Source of the DNA: a virus
Direction: 5' to 3' (one strand)
Length of the DNA: 23,929 nucleotides
IMG/VR virus record: IMGVR_UViG_3300047557_003291
Span: 1 to 23,929 of that record
The position numbers and the translations under genes were made by a program. Shown piece by piece: positions 8,331 to 23,929 of the stretch; position 1 is the first letter of the stretch; the number at the start of each line of letters is the position of its first letter. Under the pieces are notes generated by a model. The model was not told the origin of the DNA, searched no databases, and saw only the letters and a program-made list of their open reading frames with translations.

Positions 8331-9170
8331 ATGGCGACCGCAGTCCAGACCGGCTCCTACGATTTCGCTCCCGCCACGGGCCTGCCCGGCCAGATCGCGC
8401 GCGTGAAGCCCGGCCAGCTCCTCCGCGCCTTCATCGCAGCCGCTGCGATGGCCCCCGGCCTCATCGCCTTCACGGGTCGCGCGGCCGGTGGCGACCCCGG
8501 TGAGGCCGGTCCGATGACCGCCCCCGCGGCGAGCGCCACCGCGCTGATCGCCTCGGGCGGCGCGAGCTCGGGCAGCATCCAGACGATCGCCGCGGCCGAC
8601 ATGAACGGCGACCTCGCGGAGACCGAGCTCTTCCCGCCCCGCAACGTCACGCTGACCCTCTCGTCGCACGCCGACTGGGACGCCACCACGGCGGTCGTCA
8701 CCGGCACCGACGAGAACGGCGCGACGGTCACCGAGTCGCTGAGCATTCCCAACGGTGGCAACGCCACCGTCACCGGCACGCAGATGTTCCGCACGGTCAC
8801 GCAGCTCGTCATCCCGGCGCAGTCGGGCACCGGCGGGACCTTCACCTTCGGCGTCGGCTCGACCTTCGGCACCGTCGACCACATCGTCGCTGGCGCCACC
8901 GTGCGCGACAACACGCGCAGCGCGGTGAACTACGCCGAAGGCGACCTGATGCCCGTCGCGCGCGACGCGGAGATGTGGGTCACCAGCGAGACCGCCGTGA
9001 AAGACGGAGACCCCGTGTACGTGCGCGTGCGCGTGGCGTCGAGCGAGACCATCGGCGCGGTCCGCGCAACGCCGTCGAGCGGCTACACCGTGCGGCTCAA
9101 GAACGCGCGCTTCACCTCGACCAACAGCGCGGGCCTGAGCCGCGTCGACCTCAACCTCCCGGCGGGCTGA
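8331..9170 (+). CDS. Head decoration/cement-type protein carrying a beta-rich domain shared with the sheath
   Basis: 279 residues, starting 3 bases after the protease stop. Residues 1-60 (GLPGQIARVKPGQ, then a small-residue hydrophobic run) and about 183-279 (AVNYAEGDLMPVARDAEMWV, AVKDGDPVYVRVRV, a C-terminal VRLKNARF) resemble the phage structural cement (gp24-like) fold placed just before major capsid genes. Between them, residues 103-175 form an extra domain closely similar to sheath residues 172-244. The extra domain probably projects from the capsid. Name by fold similarity and position; the extra domain is not part of the usual short cement proteins. Confidence 0.72.
   Translation: MATAVQTGSYDFAPATGLPGQIARVKPGQLLRAFIAAAAMAPGLIAFTGRAAGGDPGEAGPMTAPAASATALIASGGASSGSIQTIAAADMNGDLAETELFPPRNVTLTLSSHADWDATTAVVTGTDENGATVTESLSIPNGGNATVTGTQMFRTVTQLVIPAQSGTGGTFTFGVGSTFGTVDHIVAGATVRDNTRSAVNYAEGDLMPVARDAEMWVTSETAVKDGDPVYVRVRVASSETIGAVRATPSSGYTVRLKNARFTSTNSAGLSRVDLNLPAG
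8637..8855 (+). repeat. Shared virion-surface domain, copy in the head decoration gene
   Basis: Encodes about 73 residues (103-175 of the decoration protein) aligning without gaps to 12395-12613 in the sheath gene, about 44 residues identical. Shared landmarks are SSHA-WDATTA, IP-GGN-TVT and IPAQSGT-GTFT-GV. It is a Thr/Ser/Gly-rich, alternately hydrophobic sequence typical of a small beta sandwich. It lies inside a longer gene, not as a separate ORF. Confidence 0.8.
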
Positions 9171-9175
9171 TCACC

Positions 9176-10177
9176 ATGAAGACCCCTCTCAACCGCAAGA
9201 TGACGCCCGCCCGAAAGCGGCGCCTCGACACGCTCTTCACGCCCGCGGCGCGCGATGTCGTGCGCATGGCCGACGCGCTCGGCGAGCGCATGGACGCGAG
9301 CTCCACGCTCTTCCTCGCGAGGCTTCTAGAAGAGCTCGACAACGAGCTCTTCTACGTCGAGTACCCCGAGCACGTCGGCGTGCAGATCCTGCCCATCAAG
9401 AGCAACGTCAACCCCGGCGCCGACAACTACACCTACCAGGCGCGCGACCGCGTCGGAGCGTTCGCCCCGAGCGCGAACCTCGCCGACGACTCGCCCAACC
9501 AGGAGATCGCGGGTGACTACGTCACCGCGCCGCTCTACTCGTACCGCGGGCACTACGCCTACAGCATCCAGGACATGCGCCGCGCTGCGATGGCGGGTCA
9601 GCCCCTCGAGAACGAGAAGGCCGTTGCGACGCGCGAGAACTCGGAGACGAAGCTCGACGAGATCCTGGCTGTGGGCGACAGCTCGCTGGGGATCAAGGGC
9701 TTCTACAACAACGCGAACGTGACCTCGGTCAGCGCCGACACCGGCGACTGGACGAACAGCAGCACGGACGCCGACGAGATCGTGAACGACCTCAACAAGG
9801 TCGTGCGCGGCATCATCACGGACACGAAGGGCCGTGTGATCCCCAATGCGATCATCCTCACGCCCACGCAGTACGCGGCGGCGGACACGAAGCGTCTGCC
9901 CAACACCGAGATCAGCGCGCTCGACTTCTTCAAGAAGAAGAACCCGCAGATGATGGTGTCGCAGTGGGCGCGCGGCGAGACCGCGGGCGCTGCGAGCGTG
10001 CGTCGCCTCATGTGCGGACGCATGGACCGCCGCACCCTCGAAGCGCTCGTGCCTGTGCGCTTCGAGACGTTCCCGCCCGAGATCAAGGGCCTGGTCTACA
10101 AGGTCGAAGCGCACATGCGCGCGGGCGGCGTGATCTTCCGATACCCCGGCGCGTGGCGCTACATGGACGGGTGCTGA
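9176..10177 (+). CDS. Major capsid protein, DUF2184 family (HK97 fold)
   Basis: 333 residues from the ATG at 9176, five bases after the decoration gene's stop. The same frame is open further upstream, but those codons overlap the decoration gene and encode Arg-rich shadow sequence. Family features include LPIKSNVNPGADNYTYQARD (about 72-91), YSYRGHYAYSIQDMRRAAM (about 121-139), and LAVGDSSLGIKGFYNN near 165-180. The end, with PPEIKGLVYKVEAHMRAGGV, matches the P-domain strand region. It assembles the icosahedral shell. There is no long N-terminal delta domain, consistent with a separate scaffold in the gene upstream. Confidence 0.92.
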   Translation: MKTPLNRKMTPARKRRLDTLFTPAARDVVRMADALGERMDASSTLFLARLLEELDNELFYVEYPEHVGVQILPIKSNVNPGADNYTYQARDRVGAFAPSANLADDSPNQEIAGDYVTAPLYSYRGHYAYSIQDMRRAAMAGQPLENEKAVATRENSETKLDEILAVGDSSLGIKGFYNNANVTSVSADTGDWTNSSTDADEIVNDLNKVVRGIITDTKGRVIPNAIILTPTQYAAADTKRLPNTEISALDFFKKKNPQMMVSQWARGETAGAASVRRLMCGRMDRRTLEALVPVRFETFPPEIKGLVYKVEAHMRAGGVIFRYPGAWRYMDGC

Positions 10178-10178
10178 G

Positions 10179-10499
10179 ATGAGGGCGCGCGTCATCAAGC
10201 ACGCGGTCGACGGCGTCGCCCCCGGTGGCATCGTCGAGCTCGTCGACAACCTCGCCAACCGCACGCTCATCACGGCGGGTGTGATCGAGCCCCTGGAGCC
10301 CCTGCCCGAGCAGGTGCCCCCGAAGTGCGTCAAGCCCTCGCCCAAGAGCGAGCTCGCCGACCTCCGCGCGCGCTTCGACGCGTCATGGGCTGAGGCGCAG
10401 AGGCGCATCGTGGAGCTCGAGGGCGAGAACGCCGACCTCCGCGCGCAGCTCGCCGCGAAGAAGCCCTCGAAGAAGACCGACGCCCCCACCCAGGAGTGA
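10179..10499 (+). CDS. Small head-associated protein with C-terminal coiled coil
   Basis: 106 residues, ATG one base after the capsid stop. Residues 1-42 form a compact module (RVIKHAVDGVAPGGIVELVDN then LITAGVIEPLEP), like small phage proteins found just after capsid genes. Residues 60-93 (LRARFDASWAEAQRRIVELEGENADLRAQL) are heptad-like and likely trimerise or dimerise. The tail is Lys/Pro-rich. Candidate roles are a head fibre base or head-completion accessory; no direct motif decides. Confidence 0.65.
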   Translation: MRARVIKHAVDGVAPGGIVELVDNLANRTLITAGVIEPLEPLPEQVPPKCVKPSPKSELADLRARFDASWAEAQRRIVELEGENADLRAQLAAKKPSKKTDAPTQE

Positions 10500-10502
10500 G
10501 CC

Positions 10503-10814
10503 GTGTCTGTGACGCTGGCCTCCCTTCGTGAGCGATATCCCGAGATCGAGGCTACGCCCGATGCGGTGGTGACGCGCGCGATCGGGGAGGCCACGCGTCG
10601 CACTCACGCCTCCGTCTTCGGCGAGCGTCGTGACGACGCGATCGCCCTCCGCGCCATGCACCTCCTCGCGGTGTCACCCCAAGGCATCAACGCGCGCATC
10701 GAGGGCGCGAAGCCGGGCTCGATGGAGTCGACGCTCTACGGCTGCGAGCTCCTCCAGATCATCCGCGAGGCATGTGGCGGCGCTCACATGACCGGCGTGG
10801 GGCCGCTGCGATGA
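10503..10814 (+). CDS. DUF4054-like head-tail connector
   Basis: 103 residues, GTG start with AGGAG just upstream. The pattern LRERYPEIEATPDAVVTRAIGEA followed by a helical segment with AIALRAMHLLAVS fits the DUF4054 adaptor fold (small helical head-tail connectors). These sit beneath the portal and form the neck. The position right after capsid and accessory genes agrees. Overlaps the next ATG by four bases. Confidence 0.72.
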   Translation: MSVTLASLRERYPEIEATPDAVVTRAIGEATRRTHASVFGERRDDAIALRAMHLLAVSPQGINARIEGAKPGSMESTLYGCELLQIIREACGGAHMTGVGPLR

Positions 10815-11293
10815 GCTCGCGCGTCACCATCAAAGACAACGGCGCCGCGAAGCTCATGGAGCGCGCGCGCGCGCTCGCCAAGGGCGCGACCGTGCGCGTG
10901 GGCGTGCTCGATGATGCACCCAAAGAGGTCGGCGAGGGCGAGCGCGAAGGGCCTTACTCGCTGCTCGAGGTCGCCGCGGTTCACGAGTTCGGGGCGCCTG
11001 ACGCGGGCATCCCGCAACGCAGCTTCATCCGCGCGACGATCGACCTCAAGCGCACCGAGATCGAGGCGCTCCAGACGTCACTCGCGCAGCGTGTGGTCGC
11101 GGGCGAGCTCGATCCCTCGCAGGCCCTGGAGCAGCTCGGCGCGAAGGTAGCGTCGATGTGTCAGCTCCGCATCGCTGAGGGCATCGAGCCTGCGCTGAAA
11201 CCCGAGACGATCGCGCGCAAGGGCTCCTCGAAGCCGCTGATCAACACCGGGCAGCTCCGCGCGTCGATCACCCATCGCGTGATGGGAGGCTGA
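10811..11293 (+). CDS. Tail completion/neck protein (HK97 gp10-like or Mu gpG-like)
   Basis: 160 residues from the ATG at 10811 (overlap ATGA). An earlier in-frame start exists at 10772, but it would lie inside the connector gene. The signature is VRVGVLDDAP, then VAAVHEFGAPDAGIPQRSFIRATID (about 56-80), and the end KPLINTGQLRASITHRV. This is the typical order (hEFG, IP.RsF, LidTG.L..SI) of phage virion morphogenesis and tail completion proteins. It caps or joins tail and head. Confidence 0.85.
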   Translation: MSSRVTIKDNGAAKLMERARALAKGATVRVGVLDDAPKEVGEGEREGPYSLLEVAAVHEFGAPDAGIPQRSFIRATIDLKRTEIEALQTSLAQRVVAGELDPSQALEQLGAKVASMCQLRIAEGIEPALKPETIARKGSSKPLINTGQLRASITHRVMGG

Positions 11294-11297
11294 GGCC

Positions 11298-11885
11298 ATG
11301 GACTTCGCCGCCATCGAAGAGGCGCTCCGCACGATCGTGTCGAACTGCACCGGCATCGAGCGCCCCTGCGTCATCTTCGAGAACGCACCGCGCCCTCGCC
11401 ACAACGGACGCACGGCGCTGCTCTCGTGGGTGTCGATGGCGGGCCCCGCGCTCGACTCCGCCGCGTGGGAGTACGCCGAGAACACCGACCCCTTGCTGGA
11501 GATGACCCCGAGCGCGGAGGGCGCTCGCGAGGTATCGCTCCAGGTGGGCGTAGAGGTCTACAACGACGCGCGCCCTGGTCACTCCGCAGCCGCCATCGCA
11601 GAGCGCGCGCGCACTCGCCTCGCGTGGCCCTCGTCGCTCGCAGCGCTCGCAGCGGTCGACCTCGCGCTTGCGACGGTGGGCGCCTCGACGCAGGCCGACT
11701 ATCGCGGCGACGGCGGGCGCATGGTCTCGCGCCGCGTCTTCGAAGTGCGTCTGAACGCGGTCTCGCGCGAGGTCGATGAGGCAGGCCGCACGAGCTATAT
11801 CGCCACCGCAGAGGTCACGGGCACCGTGGTCGACGCGGCGAGCGCTTCAGTCTCCGACTCGATCCAGCCCCAGGAGTGCCCATGA
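11298..11885 (+). CDS. Neck/tail terminator-like protein
   Basis: 195 residues, ATG after GAGGC. Short motifs such as AIEEALRTIVSNCTGI at the start and the internal SLQVGVEVYNDARP then AAIAERARTRLAW suggest the alpha/beta fold of tail terminator proteins, which stop sheath and tube growth and join tail to neck. It precedes the sheath gene, where gp12-type neck terminators are found in DUF3383-sheath phages. The last 20 residues overlap the sheath start. Assigned by size, pattern and order; no decisive motif. Confidence 0.65.
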   Translation: MDFAAIEEALRTIVSNCTGIERPCVIFENAPRPRHNGRTALLSWVSMAGPALDSAAWEYAENTDPLLEMTPSAEGAREVSLQVGVEVYNDARPGHSAAAIAERARTRLAWPSSLAALAAVDLALATVGASTQADYRGDGGRMVSRRVFEVRLNAVSREVDEAGRTSYIATAEVTGTVVDAASASVSDSIQPQECP

Positions 11886-13510
11886 GCTTTCTCGACGACA
11901 TCGTTACGCTCTCGATCACGCGCTCCACGCGCACCCCTACGCGCGCGGGCTTCGGCGTCGCGCTGCTCCTCGCCTACCACACGCTGAACGCCGATCGCGT
12001 GCGCGAGTACTCGTCGCTTGATGGCATGGTCGACGACGGGTTCACGCCGTACGACCCGGCCTATCTCGCGGCGCAGAGCTACTTCGCGCAGTCGCCCGCA
12101 CCCACGCGCATCAAGGTCGGTCGGCGCGCGCTCGCCCCCACGCAGGTGGTCGAGCTCACTCCGTCGAGCCCGAGCGCGAGCGAGGTCTCCACCGTCAAGA
12201 TCGACGGTCTCACCGCGACCTTCACGGCGGACGGGACGCCCACGGTAGCGGAGGCGTGCACCGGCATCGCGGCCGCGATCAACGCGCTCGCCGACGTCGA
12301 CGCGATCGTCGCGACGGGCGCGAGCTCGGCCAGCGAGCAGGAGCTCAGCGGCTCGCAGCTCGATGGCGTGACGGGCTACGCGTCGATGAGCATCCCGCGC
12401 AAGATCACCTTCACCTTCAGTTCTCACGCGAACTGGGACGCGACCACCGCGACCCTCGCGGGGATCGACGGCAACGGCCTGGCGCAGTCGGAGTCGATCG
12501 CGATCCCCGACGGCGGCAACACCACCGTCACCTCGACGAAGAAGTATCTCCAGGTCACCTCGATCACGATCCCTGCGCAGTCGGGCACGTCGGGCACCTT
12601 CACGGTGGGCGTCGCGAAGCCCGTGACCGCGGACGGCACGAGCACCACGAAGGTGGTCTGCACCGCGAGCTCTGGTGAGCTTCATAGCTTCGAGCTCGTG
12701 ACGCCGAACCTCTCGCTCCACGACGCGACGACGAACCCCGGCGTCGCCACCGACCTCGCCGCGATCGTCGCGGCCGACAACGACTGGTACGGCCTGCTCC
12801 TCGACAGCAACTCGCCCGCGGAGGTCACTGCCGCGGCCGCGTGGACCGAGACTCACAAGAAGCTCTTCGGGTACCAGACGAGCGAGACCGCGCACCTGAG
12901 CGCGGGCTCCACGTCGGTGCTCGCGTACACGCTCAGGGCCGCGGGCTACGCTCGCACCGAGGGCATCTTCGCGAAGAAGCTCGGGACGAGCGATGCGTGG
13001 CTCGCGGCCGGGTGGATGGGCGCGCGATTCGCGAAGGATCCCGGCGCCGCGACGTGGAAGTTCGCGAGCCTCGCGGGCTCATCGGTCTACGACCTCACCG
13101 ACTCGCAGCGCGCTGCACTCGACGGCTACCGACTCAACTACTACACGACCGCGGGCGGCGTGGGCATCACCGCTGAGGGCGTCACCGCGTCGGGCGAGTT
13201 CATCGACGTCACGCGCGACCTCGACTGGCTCTCCGCGCGGATCCAGGAGGGCGTCTTCGGAGCCCTGATCAGCAACGACAAGATCCCCTTCACCGACGCG
13301 GGGATCTCAGCCGTGCTGAGCTCGGTACGCGCGGCGCTCAACGGGGCCGTGCGCGTCGGAGTGCTCGCGAGCTTCACCCTCTCAGCGCCGCGCGCTGCGG
13401 ACGTGTCGAGCGGCAACAAGGCGATTCGCCATCTGCCCGACGTGACCTTTCAGGCGACCCTCGCGGGCGCGATCCACTCTCTCACCATCACCGGCCGCGT
13501 GAGCGTCTGA
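11882..13510 (+). CDS. Tail sheath protein, DUF3383 family, with an inserted domain
   Basis: 542 residues from the ATG at 11882, which overlaps the previous stop and has CAGGAG 5 bases upstream; a GTG two codons earlier is less likely. The contractile sheath signature is clear: NDWYGLLLDS (about 300-309), ARTEGIFAKK, DPGAATWKFASLAG (386-399), NYYTTAGGVGIT, FIDVTRDLDWLSARIQEGVF (440-459), and KIPFTDAGISAV. Residues 172-244 hold the domain shared with the decoration protein, inserted within the variable outer part. Sheath subunits stack around the tube and contract at infection. Confidence 0.92.
   Translation: MSFLDDIVTLSITRSTRTPTRAGFGVALLLAYHTLNADRVREYSSLDGMVDDGFTPYDPAYLAAQSYFAQSPAPTRIKVGRRALAPTQVVELTPSSPSASEVSTVKIDGLTATFTADGTPTVAEACTGIAAAINALADVDAIVATGASSASEQELSGSQLDGVTGYASMSIPRKITFTFSSHANWDATTATLAGIDGNGLAQSESIAIPDGGNTTVTSTKKYLQVTSITIPAQSGTSGTFTVGVAKPVTADGTSTTKVVCTASSGELHSFELVTPNLSLHDATTNPGVATDLAAIVAADNDWYGLLLDSNSPAEVTAAAAWTETHKKLFGYQTSETAHLSAGSTSVLAYTLRAAGYARTEGIFAKKLGTSDAWLAAGWMGARFAKDPGAATWKFASLAGSSVYDLTDSQRAALDGYRLNYYTTAGGVGITAEGVTASGEFIDVTRDLDWLSARIQEGVFGALISNDKIPFTDAGISAVLSSVRAALNGAVRVGVLASFTLSAPRAADVSSGNKAIRHLPDVTFQATLAGAIHSLTITGRVSV
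12395..12613 (+). repeat. Shared virion-surface domain, copy in the sheath gene
   Basis: Second copy of the domain described at 8637-8855, starting at PRKITFTF and ending near TFTVGV. The third codon bases differ more than the residues, so the duplication is not recent, or it came through separate acquisition. Confidence 0.8.
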
Positions 13511-18083: not shown

Positions 18084-18856
18084 TGGAGCGCCCCCCGTTT
18101 CCGACTGAGCGCGACGTGCTCGATGCGCGCGAACAACAGATGGAGCTTCGCACGCACGTCGCCTATCCAGGGCGAGTGCAGAGCTACGACGCTGCGACGC
18201 AGACGGCTGACATCGTGCCGCTCATCCGTCAGCAAGTACCGCAGCCCGACGGCTCTTACGTCATGGAAGAGTTGCCGGTGATCCCCTCGGTGCCGGTGCT
18301 CTGGCCTCGCGTCGGGCGGTGGTTCATGGCGATGGCCCTTCAGCCAGAGGACACAGTGCAGCTCCTCGTGAACACGTCGGCGATCGGACACTGGCGCACC
18401 GGCACCGGGGACGTCACCGACCCCGGAGACCTTCGACGCCAGCACATCTCACATGCGGTCGCGATCCCTGGCCTCTTCACGCGCGGCCGCGCGCTCAGCA
18501 GGGCTCCACGCGGCACCGGAGGCCAGGGCGAGATCCTCAGCACAGACGACGCGCTCGTGATCGGGAGCGACAGCGATGGGCCGCGCATCACCATGCGCCC
18601 CAACGGTTCGCTCACGATCGCGTGCGGTAGCACTGTCGTCGCGCAGCTCGATGCCGATGGGACGTGGCACTTCGGCGGCGCCGCGGGAGATTTCGTCGCG
18701 CTCGCCAGCCTCGTAAGCGCACGCCTCGAATCGATGAGGTCGTACATCAACGCGCACACGCATCCGGTCGCGTCAGCACCGGGTACGTCGGGCGTTCCGA
18801 CGGCGCCTCTCTCCGCGCAGGACTCCGTCGCCGCGACAAAGGTGAGGGCTACCTGA
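18083..18856 (+). CDS. Central spike protein, gp138-like N-terminal OB domain
   Basis: 257 residues from the ATG at 18083, preceded by CGGAG. Residues about 20-125 match the gp138 N-terminal OB-type domain (PGRVQSYDAATQTADIVPLI, LPVIPSVPVLWPRVG, QPEDTVQLLVN, AIGHW, RRQHISHAVAIPGL). A beta-helical middle follows (DGPRITMRPNGSLTIACGS, then DGTWHFGG), and an apex INAHTHPVASAPGTSGVPT with a HxH pair that may bind a metal ion, as in known spike tips. It pierces the outer membrane on contraction. Its stop overlaps the convergent lipoprotein gene by 8 bases. Confidence 0.88.
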   Translation: MERPPFPTERDVLDAREQQMELRTHVAYPGRVQSYDAATQTADIVPLIRQQVPQPDGSYVMEELPVIPSVPVLWPRVGRWFMAMALQPEDTVQLLVNTSAIGHWRTGTGDVTDPGDLRRQHISHAVAIPGLFTRGRALSRAPRGTGGQGEILSTDDALVIGSDSDGPRITMRPNGSLTIACGSTVVAQLDADGTWHFGGAAGDFVALASLVSARLESMRSYINAHTHPVASAPGTSGVPTAPLSAQDSVAATKVRAT

Positions 18857-19529
18857 CCTCGCAGCCGAGGGCGATGAGCTCGACACTCACGCGCGGACCG
18901 CACGCGGTAGAAGAGCGGGTACCCACCGCGCGACCGTTGATGCGTCGCATCCCGGCGGTCTCGTAGATCGCAGAGAGCTCGAACGTTGCCCCGGCGATCA
19001 CCTGCGAGGCGCCACCGCAGCGCTCTGCGAGCGTGCTGAGCGACAGGGAGAGGCGCTGGAACACCGCGTAGACCATCGGCGCGTCGACGGTGGGCGAGTA
19101 GATGTGCAGGCCACCGCCAGGATCGACGCCACACACGCCCTCGATCCTGCGCGGAGTCTCCCCTCCGACCGAAAGCCACACCTGGGGGCGATCGACTCGG
19201 GCCTCTAGCGTCGGGCGCGTCGATGCGTCGGAAGCGTCGCCAACTGCGGCGACATCCCGCGCGGCATCGACCGGGCCCGCGTCGGGGCTCGCGTCCCGGA
19301 GCACATCGCCAACTGCGGCGACGTCGCCCCCCTGCGAATCATGGCTCACGTCCTGGAGCACTTCGGGCGCGTCGTCGGCCGTTGCCGTGTCGCCCGGGGC
19401 GTCGGGGGCGTCGGGGGGCGCATCGGGAGCGGCGTCGACCGGGGCGGCGTCGGGAGGTGACTGCGACGGCTCGGAGCCGCACGCGACGAGGAGCAGGGCG
19501 AGGAGGATGGCGGGGAGAGGGTAGCGCAT
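18849..19529 (-). CDS. Secreted lipoprotein with Asp/Ala/Pro-rich linker
   Basis: 226 residues on the minus strand, ATG at 19529. The signal peptide has a short n-region, hydrophobic core AILLALLLVAC and lipobox LVAC with Cys at position 17. After the Cys come about 80 residues rich in Asp, Ala, Pro and Thr, then a folded C-terminal domain (about 105-226) with four Cys, which may form disulfides. The linker style is common in Myxococcota/Polyangia outer-membrane lipoproteins. In a phage it might be an outer-membrane spanin, a superinfection exclusion lipoprotein, or a moron. It is last in a minus-strand cassette and convergent with the spike gene. Confidence 0.72.
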   Translation of the reverse strand: MRYPLPAILLALLLVACGSEPSQSPPDAAPVDAAPDAPPDAPDAPGDTATADDAPEVLQDVSHDSQGGDVAAVGDVLRDASPDAGPVDAARDVAAVGDASDASTRPTLEARVDRPQVWLSVGGETPRRIEGVCGVDPGGGLHIYSPTVDAPMVYAVFQRLSLSLSTLAERCGGASQVIAGATFELSAIYETAGMRRINGRAVGTRSSTACGPRVSVELIALGCEVR

Positions 19530-21857: not shown

Positions 21858-22468
21858 CGGAGCCCACGCGGATCACCGAGCACGCGCACGACGATGCGCA
21901 CGTCGCGGAGGGGCTCGCGCTGCTCACCTCGAGGCTCAGGGGTAAACCGGCCATCGAGGCGTTCCTCTCATCGGTGCTCGAGCAGGTGCAGGAGGTCGAG
22001 GATGCGCTCTGGAGCCTCTACGGACTCGCGATCGACGACAGCAGTGACGTCGCGCTCGACCAGATCGGTGCGGTGCTCGGTCAGCCTCGCCCCGACGGGA
22101 TGGACGACACGACGTATCGGCTCGTGCTCGGTGGCGTGGTGGTCGCGCTCACGAGCTCGGGCACAGGCGATGATCTCCTGCGCGCGACGCACGCGCTTCT
22201 GGGCTCGTGGGACTTCTCGCTCACCGAGGCATTCCCCGCGGCAGTCCTGATCGAGCCCGACGCGCACCCGAGCGTTCCCGCGGCGGTGATTCACGCAGTG
22301 CTTCGAAGGGTGAAGAGCGGTGGCGTGGGGCTCCAGGTGATCGACGTCCCGAGCGGTGATCTCTTCACGCTCTCGTCGAGCGTGGAGCTCGAAGAAGACG
22401 ACGCGGACCGGGGCTTCAGTGACACGGATCGAGCGGCCGGTGGGCTGCTCGTCGGGGTGATCGAATGA
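21854..22468 (+). CDS. Wedge protein, DUF2612-like
   Basis: 204 residues, GTG start overlapping the J-like stop. Residues about 60-95 carry VALDQIGAVLGQPRPDGMDDTTYRLVL, the signature of DUF2612/phage wedge proteins (LDqIG..lG.pR). The downstream part (100-150) is helical, and the end is acidic. It links the baseplate wedge to tail fibres and lies, as usual, between J and fibre genes. Its stop overlaps the fibre ATG. Confidence 0.85.
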   Translation: MTEPTRITEHAHDDAHVAEGLALLTSRLRGKPAIEAFLSSVLEQVQEVEDALWSLYGLAIDDSSDVALDQIGAVLGQPRPDGMDDTTYRLVLGGVVVALTSSGTGDDLLRATHALLGSWDFSLTEAFPAAVLIEPDAHPSVPAAVIHAVLRRVKSGGVGLQVIDVPSGDLFTLSSSVELEEDDADRGFSDTDRAAGGLLVGVIE

Positions 22469-23929
22469 GTGCGAAGAGACCTACTCAAGTGCCTCGATGG
22501 GCCTTCGGCGATGCGGCGGTGCGAGTGCAGCCCCCGACGCTCAGCGCGAGTGAGGGCTTCCGAGTGGGCACGCGCGTGCCGGGGCCGTGGCTCAACTGGC
22601 AGTTCAACGCGCTGGGAGGGTGGATCGACTTCCTCCGCGCGCCCAACGTCAACGCGTTCGCGCGCGTCTCGTGGGCGACATCGCCGGGCTCTTACGACTC
22701 GAGCTCGCCGGTGCTCCTCGCGTGCGACGCCGACACGATCGAGACGACGGGCGCGGCCTATCGCATCGTGATCGCGGGGTGGGAGACCTCGGGGCCCACG
22801 AGCTCGCTCCAGGTCTCGCAGACGGGCAACGCCTGGACGCGTCGCACCAACACCCCGGGGGGCTTCGGCAGGCCCACGGCGCTCGCTCACATCGCGTGCG
22901 CACCTCGGTGGGTGATCGCCGACGACGGGCCGGGCCTTTATTACGCACCGCACGACGCAGGCGCAGGGACGTCACCCATCGGGGGGTCGAGCTCGGGGTG
23001 GACCGCTGCGACTGCGGCCGACGACGGCAGCGGCGGCGTGACGGCGATCAAGGCCATCGCGTCGAGCACTTCGAAGGCCGTCGCGATCACCGCAGCGGGC
23101 GGCCTCTGGAGCGCAGACGGGATCACATGGAGCGCGATCACCGAGGGCACCGCGCGCACAGGCAACGGCCTCGATGTCGTGTGGACGGGCAGCGCGTTCG
23201 TCTACGTCACGAGCGACGGCGAGGTCTACTCGTCGCCCACGGCGGACGGTAGCTTCGCGCTCAAGGGCACGCTCCCCGATGGCGCCGCAGACTGGCGCCT
23301 CGCAGCGGGCGACGCGGGCGAAGTGCTCGCCTACCAGCACAACAACGGGAGCGCGTCGGACCTCTTCCGCAGCACCAACGACGGCGCCTCGTGGTCGACG
23401 CTCACGCCGCTCGCGGTCGGACGCGATGTGCTCCGTCTCACGTGCGTGCGCTGGCGTGACGGCGTGTGGATGGCGACGAGCAGCGTGGCGCCGTTCCTCT
23501 GGACCTCGAACGACGCGGTGAACTGGACGGCGCTCAGGGTCGACGTGAGCGGCTCGGGCGCGCTCCAGTCGATCGCGTGGGATGGGAGCGCGTGGATCGC
23601 GGCGGGCAATGGTTTCGTGGTGCGCTGCCCTCGCGGCGCGGACCCTGCGCCCGGTGACTACGTCGCAGACGGAGACCCTGCGACGCTCGCGGACGCGGCC
23701 TCGCTGCGAGGTCGACGCATCGAGACCGGCGACCCGAGCGACGGCGATACGCTCGTCTGGAATGCCGCAGATGAGCAGTGGGAGTACGGCGCCGGTGGCG
23801 GGTCGGCGGCGACGCCGCCGCTCGCGCTCCCGTCGAGCGTGCGCGACGCAGTGGCGTGGCTCGACCCGGAGACGCTGCCCGACGTCGCAAACGGCACGTC
23901 GCTGCGTACGTGGGTCGGGCTGCACGGTG
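22465..23929 (+). CDS. Tail fibre/receptor-binding protein with Asp-box beta-propeller, 3' end outside the window
   Basis: Starts at the ATG 22465 (ATGA overlap) and stays open to the window end, at least 488 residues. The N-terminal 55 residues (PRWAFGDAAVRVQPP, then PGPWLNWQFNALGGWIDFL) are a fibre baseplate anchor. Residues about 60-400 are repeated strands with Asp-box/BNR-like motifs: WSADGITWSA near 214, STNDGASWST near 302, WTSNDAVNWTAL near 345. This suggests a beta-propeller binding glycans. Near 420-445 comes SDGDTLVWNAADEQWEYG, a common fibre linker. After 459, VAWLDPETLPD then GTSLRTWVG opens a LamG-like lectin domain that is cut off. Confidence 0.85.
   Translation, partial: MSAKRPTQVPRWAFGDAAVRVQPPTLSASEGFRVGTRVPGPWLNWQFNALGGWIDFLRAPNVNAFARVSWATSPGSYDSSSPVLLACDADTIETTGAAYRIVIAGWETSGPTSSLQVSQTGNAWTRRTNTPGGFGRPTALAHIACAPRWVIADDGPGLYYAPHDAGAGTSPIGGSSSGWTAATAADDGSGGVTAIKAIASSTSKAVAITAAGGLWSADGITWSAITEGTARTGNGLDVVWTGSAFVYVTSDGEVYSSPTADGSFALKGTLPDGAADWRLAAGDAGEVLAYQHNNGSASDLFRSTNDGASWSTLTPLAVGRDVLRLTCVRWRDGVWMATSSVAPFLWTSNDAVNWTALRVDVSGSGALQSIAWDGSAWIAAGNGFVVRCPRGADPAPGDYVADGDPATLADAASLRGRRIETGDPSDGDTLVWNAADEQWEYGAGGGSAATPPLALPSSVRDAVAWLDPETLPDVANGTSLRTWVGLHG

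Follow-up and report, generated by a model that had tools for sequence, protein, structure and literature searches.

The described systems closest to the one reported here are the Ig-like domains of phages, among them those of Hoc, T5 pb10 and the additional domains of tail sheaths. In the account given of them by Evseev 2022 (PMC9230969), these beta-sandwich domains are optional additions to the abundant proteins on the outside of heads and tails; they pass from phage to phage, are suspected of binding carbohydrates weakly and sometimes stand in tandem. The same source analysed 112 sheath models, in which additional domains were located away from the tube contact, and proposed that Ig-like domains of heads and sheaths act in adhesion (PMC9230969). 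For the two structural proteins themselves, phage E217 provides a scale and a geometry: its virion carries 180 cement and 204 sheath copies (figures for E217, not for the phage studied here), its cement protein makes surface protrusions, and an omega loop of this protein, gp24 (residues 58-75), contacts the N-terminal arm of the adjacent subunit (PMC10329688).

We analysed a 23,929-nt stretch of viral DNA, referred to below as the window, in which one domain occurs in both the head decoration (cement) protein and the contractile tail sheath (Table 1). Whereas phage surface domains are usually described protein by protein, here one uncatalogued family occupies fixed, optional sites in two proteins of the same phages, the cement of the head and the sheath of the tail. 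We read this domain, or module, as an optional surface sandwich on cement and sheath that most likely serves weak glycan adhesion, and give this explanation as a whole a probability of about 0.5; its anatomical part we hold with high confidence. The module adds to what is known of promiscuous sandwich domains on phage surfaces, for which the Ig-like domains are the precedent. It differs from them in that one closely related, loop-nested unit is carried by both cement and sheath of a single phage, that no Ig-type family matched any of 45 copies beyond a weak scatter (e.g., Big_9 in 1 of 45, E 0.062), and that the best structural likenesses listed are of jelly-roll type. The sequence-only reading knew of no standard example of one module on both head and sheath; the class of promiscuous Ig-like domains, as presented in PMC9230969 (citing Fraser 2006), foreshadows such an arrangement, while the present family is indeed uncatalogued.

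Table 1. Carrier genes, module copies and a context gene in the window (residue numbers refer to the respective protein).
Feature	Position	Strand	Basis or remark
Head decoration (cement) protein, 279 aa	8331..9170	+	PF22758-type body plus insert; PF22758 Phage_cement E 2.2e-10
Module copy A, decoration residues 66-177	8526..8861	+	Full homologous unit, edges approximate; upstream homology and model
73-residue segment of the sequence-only reading, decoration 103-175	8637..8855	+	44/75 identical to sheath copy
Major capsid protein, HK97 type	9176..10177	+	PF09950 E 9.8e-46; context gene for family tree
Contractile tail sheath, 542 aa, DUF3383	11882..13510	+	PF11863 E 9.7e-32; phrog_205 tail sheath E 2.8e-93
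Module copy B, sheath residues 135-246	12284..12619	+	Full homologous unit, edges approximate; relatives with and without insert aligned
73-residue segment of the sequence-only reading, sheath 172-244	12395..12613	+	E 7.6e-27 to decoration copy

Profiles (PF22758, PF11863/phrog_205) and folds agree with the initial naming of the carriers as a cement protein and a DUF3383 sheath. In Pfam searches the decoration protein scored 41.2 bits against PF22758 (curated cut-off 27) and the window sheath 110.9 bits against PF11863 (cut-off 34.9); seven of eight cement relatives also exceeded the PF22758 cut-off, with the match split around the insert. AlphaFold2 models (mean pLDDT 89.9 for the decoration protein, from 31 sequences, and 89.0 for the sheath, from 26) grouped the decoration body with the PF22758 cements of Pam3 (gp6; 8hdt_G, Z 17.2 over 150 residues) and E217 (gp24; Z 14.4) and give it the beta-tulip cement fold. 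By profile and fold, the sheath body resembled the DUF3383/phrog_205 sheaths of Sf14, Bas63, PhiTE, phi92 and 9zdk gp76, at Z values of roughly 29-35 for Sf14, PhiTE and Bas63 and the closest fit to Sf14 (9c3b; Z 35.5, rmsd 2.1, 321 residues). The solved members of this sheath group differ in lacking the module, their site being empty, and the Pam3 cement differs in having a short loop at the place where the window decoration protein holds it.

The decoration and sheath copies were 59% identical in an ungapped alignment. Local alignment of the two proteins scored 287 against a maximum of 93 over 2000 shuffles, far beyond chance similarity. When the decoration copy was used to search the complete virus record in six frames, two places only were hit, with no third copy. 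The match had been described from sequence alone as 73 residues of about 60% identity in otherwise unrelated proteins. Its coordinates are exact and its percentage is right, but the boundary is wrong at the upstream edge, where a further 36 residues are homologous too (P 1.1e-18 in a profile-profile comparison of 26 decoration and 17 sheath copies). When copies were aligned with their flanks, the upstream motif DADAI-ATG-ASSA-QTL-GA-LDG--G was common to both kinds. The module is thus a unit of about 110 residues rather than 73. Independent support for this length comes from the 669-aa sheath of a relative (L028, 5482-7488) with two tandem modules, whose 73-residue parts (174-245 and 287-359, 60% identical to each other) recur with a period of 113 residues. 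The decoration model agrees with the longer unit, in that its residues 64-179 align separately to other structures.

The module is acidic and Thr/Ser-rich, with a pI of 4.05 in one copy and 4.51 in the other, and sits in carrier bodies of rather different charge. Across 45 copies, 11 columns were at least 90% conserved. Two loops, HADWDAT and IPAQSGTGGT, were among the best conserved columns and are common to head and tail copies, with the apparent conservation of HADWDA inflated by its having belonged to the search seed. Amino-acid change in the module was smaller than elsewhere in the sheath and roughly matched that elsewhere in the cement; Nei-Gojobori dN/dS ratios were set aside as a test because third positions exceeding 90% G+C distort dS.

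Relatives gathered by scanning viral contigs and bacterial genomes showed that the module is an optional insert with one fixed site per carrier protein, and that the carrier cores are intact without it. In the cement it comes after the first strands and before the GV/GI-x-x-R strand and splits PF22758 near profile position 40-57. In the sheath it follows the domain A helix ending AAAINAL, at a point where module-free relatives skip the insert, and the 73-residue part begins at residue 168-177 in every complete module-bearing sheath. Module-free sheaths were mostly 424-445 aa long (shortest complete one, 376), and one-copy sheaths 542-571 aa. The two sites are natural acceptor points for a foreign domain in these structural proteins. 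One relative (L010, 2326-3183) encodes a module-free cement that carries a different, beta-rich-looking extension at its C-terminus, which suggests that these cements take other additional domains too.

In the models the module is predicted to form a beta-sandwich of its own, set into a loop of the cement and into domain A of the sheath as an insert that belongs to neither core. The proposal of a beta-sandwich module in two outer virion proteins therefore stands as to predicted fold and insertion, with its length corrected as above. The domain A stretch of the sheath aligned to the Sf14, Bas63, phi92 and 9zdk sheaths; the minimal Pam3 sheath lacks the whole stretch that holds the module (profile position 86-279), and domain A is absent from the pyocin sheath as well (PMC10329688). 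The sheath module is an insert within an insert, and the extra domain appears to match domain A of E217. The cement insertion site may equal the E217 omega loop, in a gp24 that was not alignable to the cement by sequence. Since additional sheath domains have been published as lying away from the tube, outward display of the module can be inferred strongly for the sheath and less strongly for the cement.

The natural relatives occupy all four possible states and so allow direct comparison on the purpose of the extra domain. In 73 phages whose cement, capsid and sheath genes were all visible, a set collected in part by searching for the module, it was present in both proteins in 15, in the cement only in 8, in the sheath only in 2 and in neither in 48. 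Scans seeded outside the module gave the same pattern, whether with a sheath motif (both 4, cement only 3, sheath only 2, neither 26) or with a capsid-protein motif (6, 5, 0 and 27, respectively). Of 92 related cement ORFs, 61 lacked the module; of the 117 related sheath ORFs that are distinct, 98 lacked it, so that it is far from a constant part of DUF3383 sheaths. Eight longer records with the module in both proteins, two of them over 40 kb (G003, G009), carried it in cement and sheath and nowhere else; in two others (G006, G008) the cement had it and the sheath did not. On a quick tree of capsid proteins, the cement insert changed state at least five times and the sheath insert at least six. 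Raw Fisher tests of co-occurrence in cement and sheath, which ignore kinship, were significant; the tree offers too few independent pairs to support co-occurrence beyond that expected from shared ancestry.

Searching 50,697 phage records with the module by tblastn gave a single match, in a head-region protein of MW202476. Two bacterial genomes held a close form, both in the phylum group searched around a Myxococcales genome, and the window phage may for this reason infect Myxococcota. A Myxococcales genome contig (L058, 5666-6403) contained a broken cement gene with module and cement body in different frames, which probably reflects either the remains of a prophage or faulty assembly.

The history of the copies was evaluated on a 48-copy tree, many forks of which are unresolved owing to the shortness of the module. 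Cement and sheath labels were strongly clustered on it (11 changes versus 18.0 for shuffled labels); the window sheath copy fell within a supported sheath-only clade (100/99), and the nearest neighbours of the window decoration copy were other decoration copies. Because copies cluster mainly by gene, the inserts appear to have been inherited side by side in most lineages, with no recent copying. Copies of the same phage shared 53% mean identity versus 50% between phages (permutation p 0.02). Concerted evolution was rejected as a general rule, as a clear pairing of the two copies of one phage is seen in a single relative (L056, support 96/86). The resulting picture would be one of old double occupation and separate inheritance in most lineages; now and then the module would have been gained, lost or copied. 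The description of the module as mobile is accordingly apt for its optional presence and not for recent jumping between the two genes, which gene-wise clustering in most lineages shows not to be the rule. Two relatives (L030 and L066) had almost identical capsid proteins and differed in the presence of the sheath insert, while the L066 sheath was 88% identical to that of a third (L037); together these likenesses make exchange of the sheath gene by recombination likely.

A search of profile collections with the 73-residue segment, proposed along with the sequence-only reading, led to no named family: neither Pfam nor PHROGs holds one for the module, whether queried alone or as 45 copies, and only scattered weak matches were returned. 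Sequence searches of the PDB found no solved relative, and no CBM family was among the Pfam matches of the 45 copies (74-residue part). A wider family was found with hhalign (probability 98), as a domain of phage and prophage proteins that differ in other respects and are about 200-500 residues long; those scanned had no Pfam or PHROGs family either. On a 195-kb phage contig (L046, 5371-6453), two tandem copies of this wider family make up part of a 360-aa protein with no family match, a possible surface protein of a large phage.

The structural matches listed for the module were mostly jelly-rolls of middling Z, and the Ig fold, a Greek-key sandwich, is compatible too. Decoration residues 64-179 matched CBM6, CBM35, CBM36 and CBM29 at Z 5.3-6.2 over about 90-100 residues, a Bdellovibrio fibre domain at Z 6.8 and XepA, an exported protein of the PBSX prophage, at Z 6.0; a Z of about 6 is within reach of common beta-sandwich arrangements, and CBM-like folds are plentiful in the PDB. 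The module shares its size and overall beta-sandwich arrangement with CBM6, CBM35 and CBM36 (jelly-roll, galactose-binding-like fold) but has only about 5-17% sequence identity to them and no Pfam CBM match, so that the likeness may be one of common arrangement only. The predicted resemblance fits weak glycan adhesion and is no proof of it.

Weak polyvalent adhesion to glycans is nonetheless the best-supported working idea for the function, and one that we put forward tentatively, at somewhat below even odds. It draws on the optional presence of the module, the outer position of the carrier in both cases, the predicted sandwich, jelly-roll-like and resembling CBMs, and the acidic, Thr/Ser-rich composition. 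The module would be an autonomous domain, probably a jelly-roll, set into one fixed loop of a cement protein that presumably forms trimers at the three-fold axes of the capsid, as in its PF22758 relatives, and into one fixed turn of the outer domain A of the sheath. Facing outward on head and tail, it would be present in many copies per virion and may bind glycans, whether on host cells, in biofilm or on some other surface, keeping the particle close to its host until the tail fibres take hold. The entire outer surface of the virion is probably clad in this one module. That an undescribed, lectin-like jelly-roll family turns the whole particle, beyond its fibres, into a polyvalent adhesin with a single glycan as target is a bolder and more doubtful extension.

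The strongly conserved loops could speak against adhesion, since they could be structural and serve neighbour contacts rather than a ligand. If the cement insertion site does correspond to the E217 omega loop, which packs on the neighbouring subunit's N-terminal arm (PMC10329688), a structural role would be favoured: modules would touch neighbouring modules or bodies on cement trimers and sheath subunits and stiffen head and tail, the fold being a good generic clamp with no ligand. A tail-cementing role has been suggested for extra domains of sheaths (PMC9230969), and loop motifs common to head and tail copies fit such a clamp. We nevertheless consider reinforcement unlikely, as the module is optional at both sites and has changed state repeatedly at each, several phages hold it in just one of the two proteins, and the same acidic domain sits in bodies of rather different charge. 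The patchy presence, the tandem copy in one sheath and the wider family in otherwise different small phage proteins would also suit a promiscuous passenger, dropped by recombination into permissive loops of abundant surface proteins with no specific function. This is improbable given the highly conserved columns kept despite wide divergence and the restrained amino-acid change, which speaks against drift; most lineages have, moreover, kept each copy in its own gene long enough for gene-wise clustering. Finally, the richness in Thr, Ser and Gly might hint at convergent low-complexity similarity, or the segment might be integral to both host folds with no domain inserted. Against this stand the 59% identity over 75 columns, an alignment score far above the shuffle maximum, and solved sheaths without the module; the distribution among relatives refutes it, and we regard it as next to impossible.

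Compared with these alternatives, an adhesive surface sandwich on cement and sheath remains our preferred reading. Two other ORFs of the window, neither with a Pfam match, deserve mention. Within the baseplate gene cluster, a minus-strand ORF (18849-19529) combines a lipoprotein-like signal (LLLVACGS) with a Pro/Asp/Ala-rich linker and is a possible lipoprotein moron. A tail protein truncated at the window end (22465-23928) contains Asp-box-like repeats (SADGITW, STNDGASW, SNDAVNW) that are suggestive of a beta-propeller.
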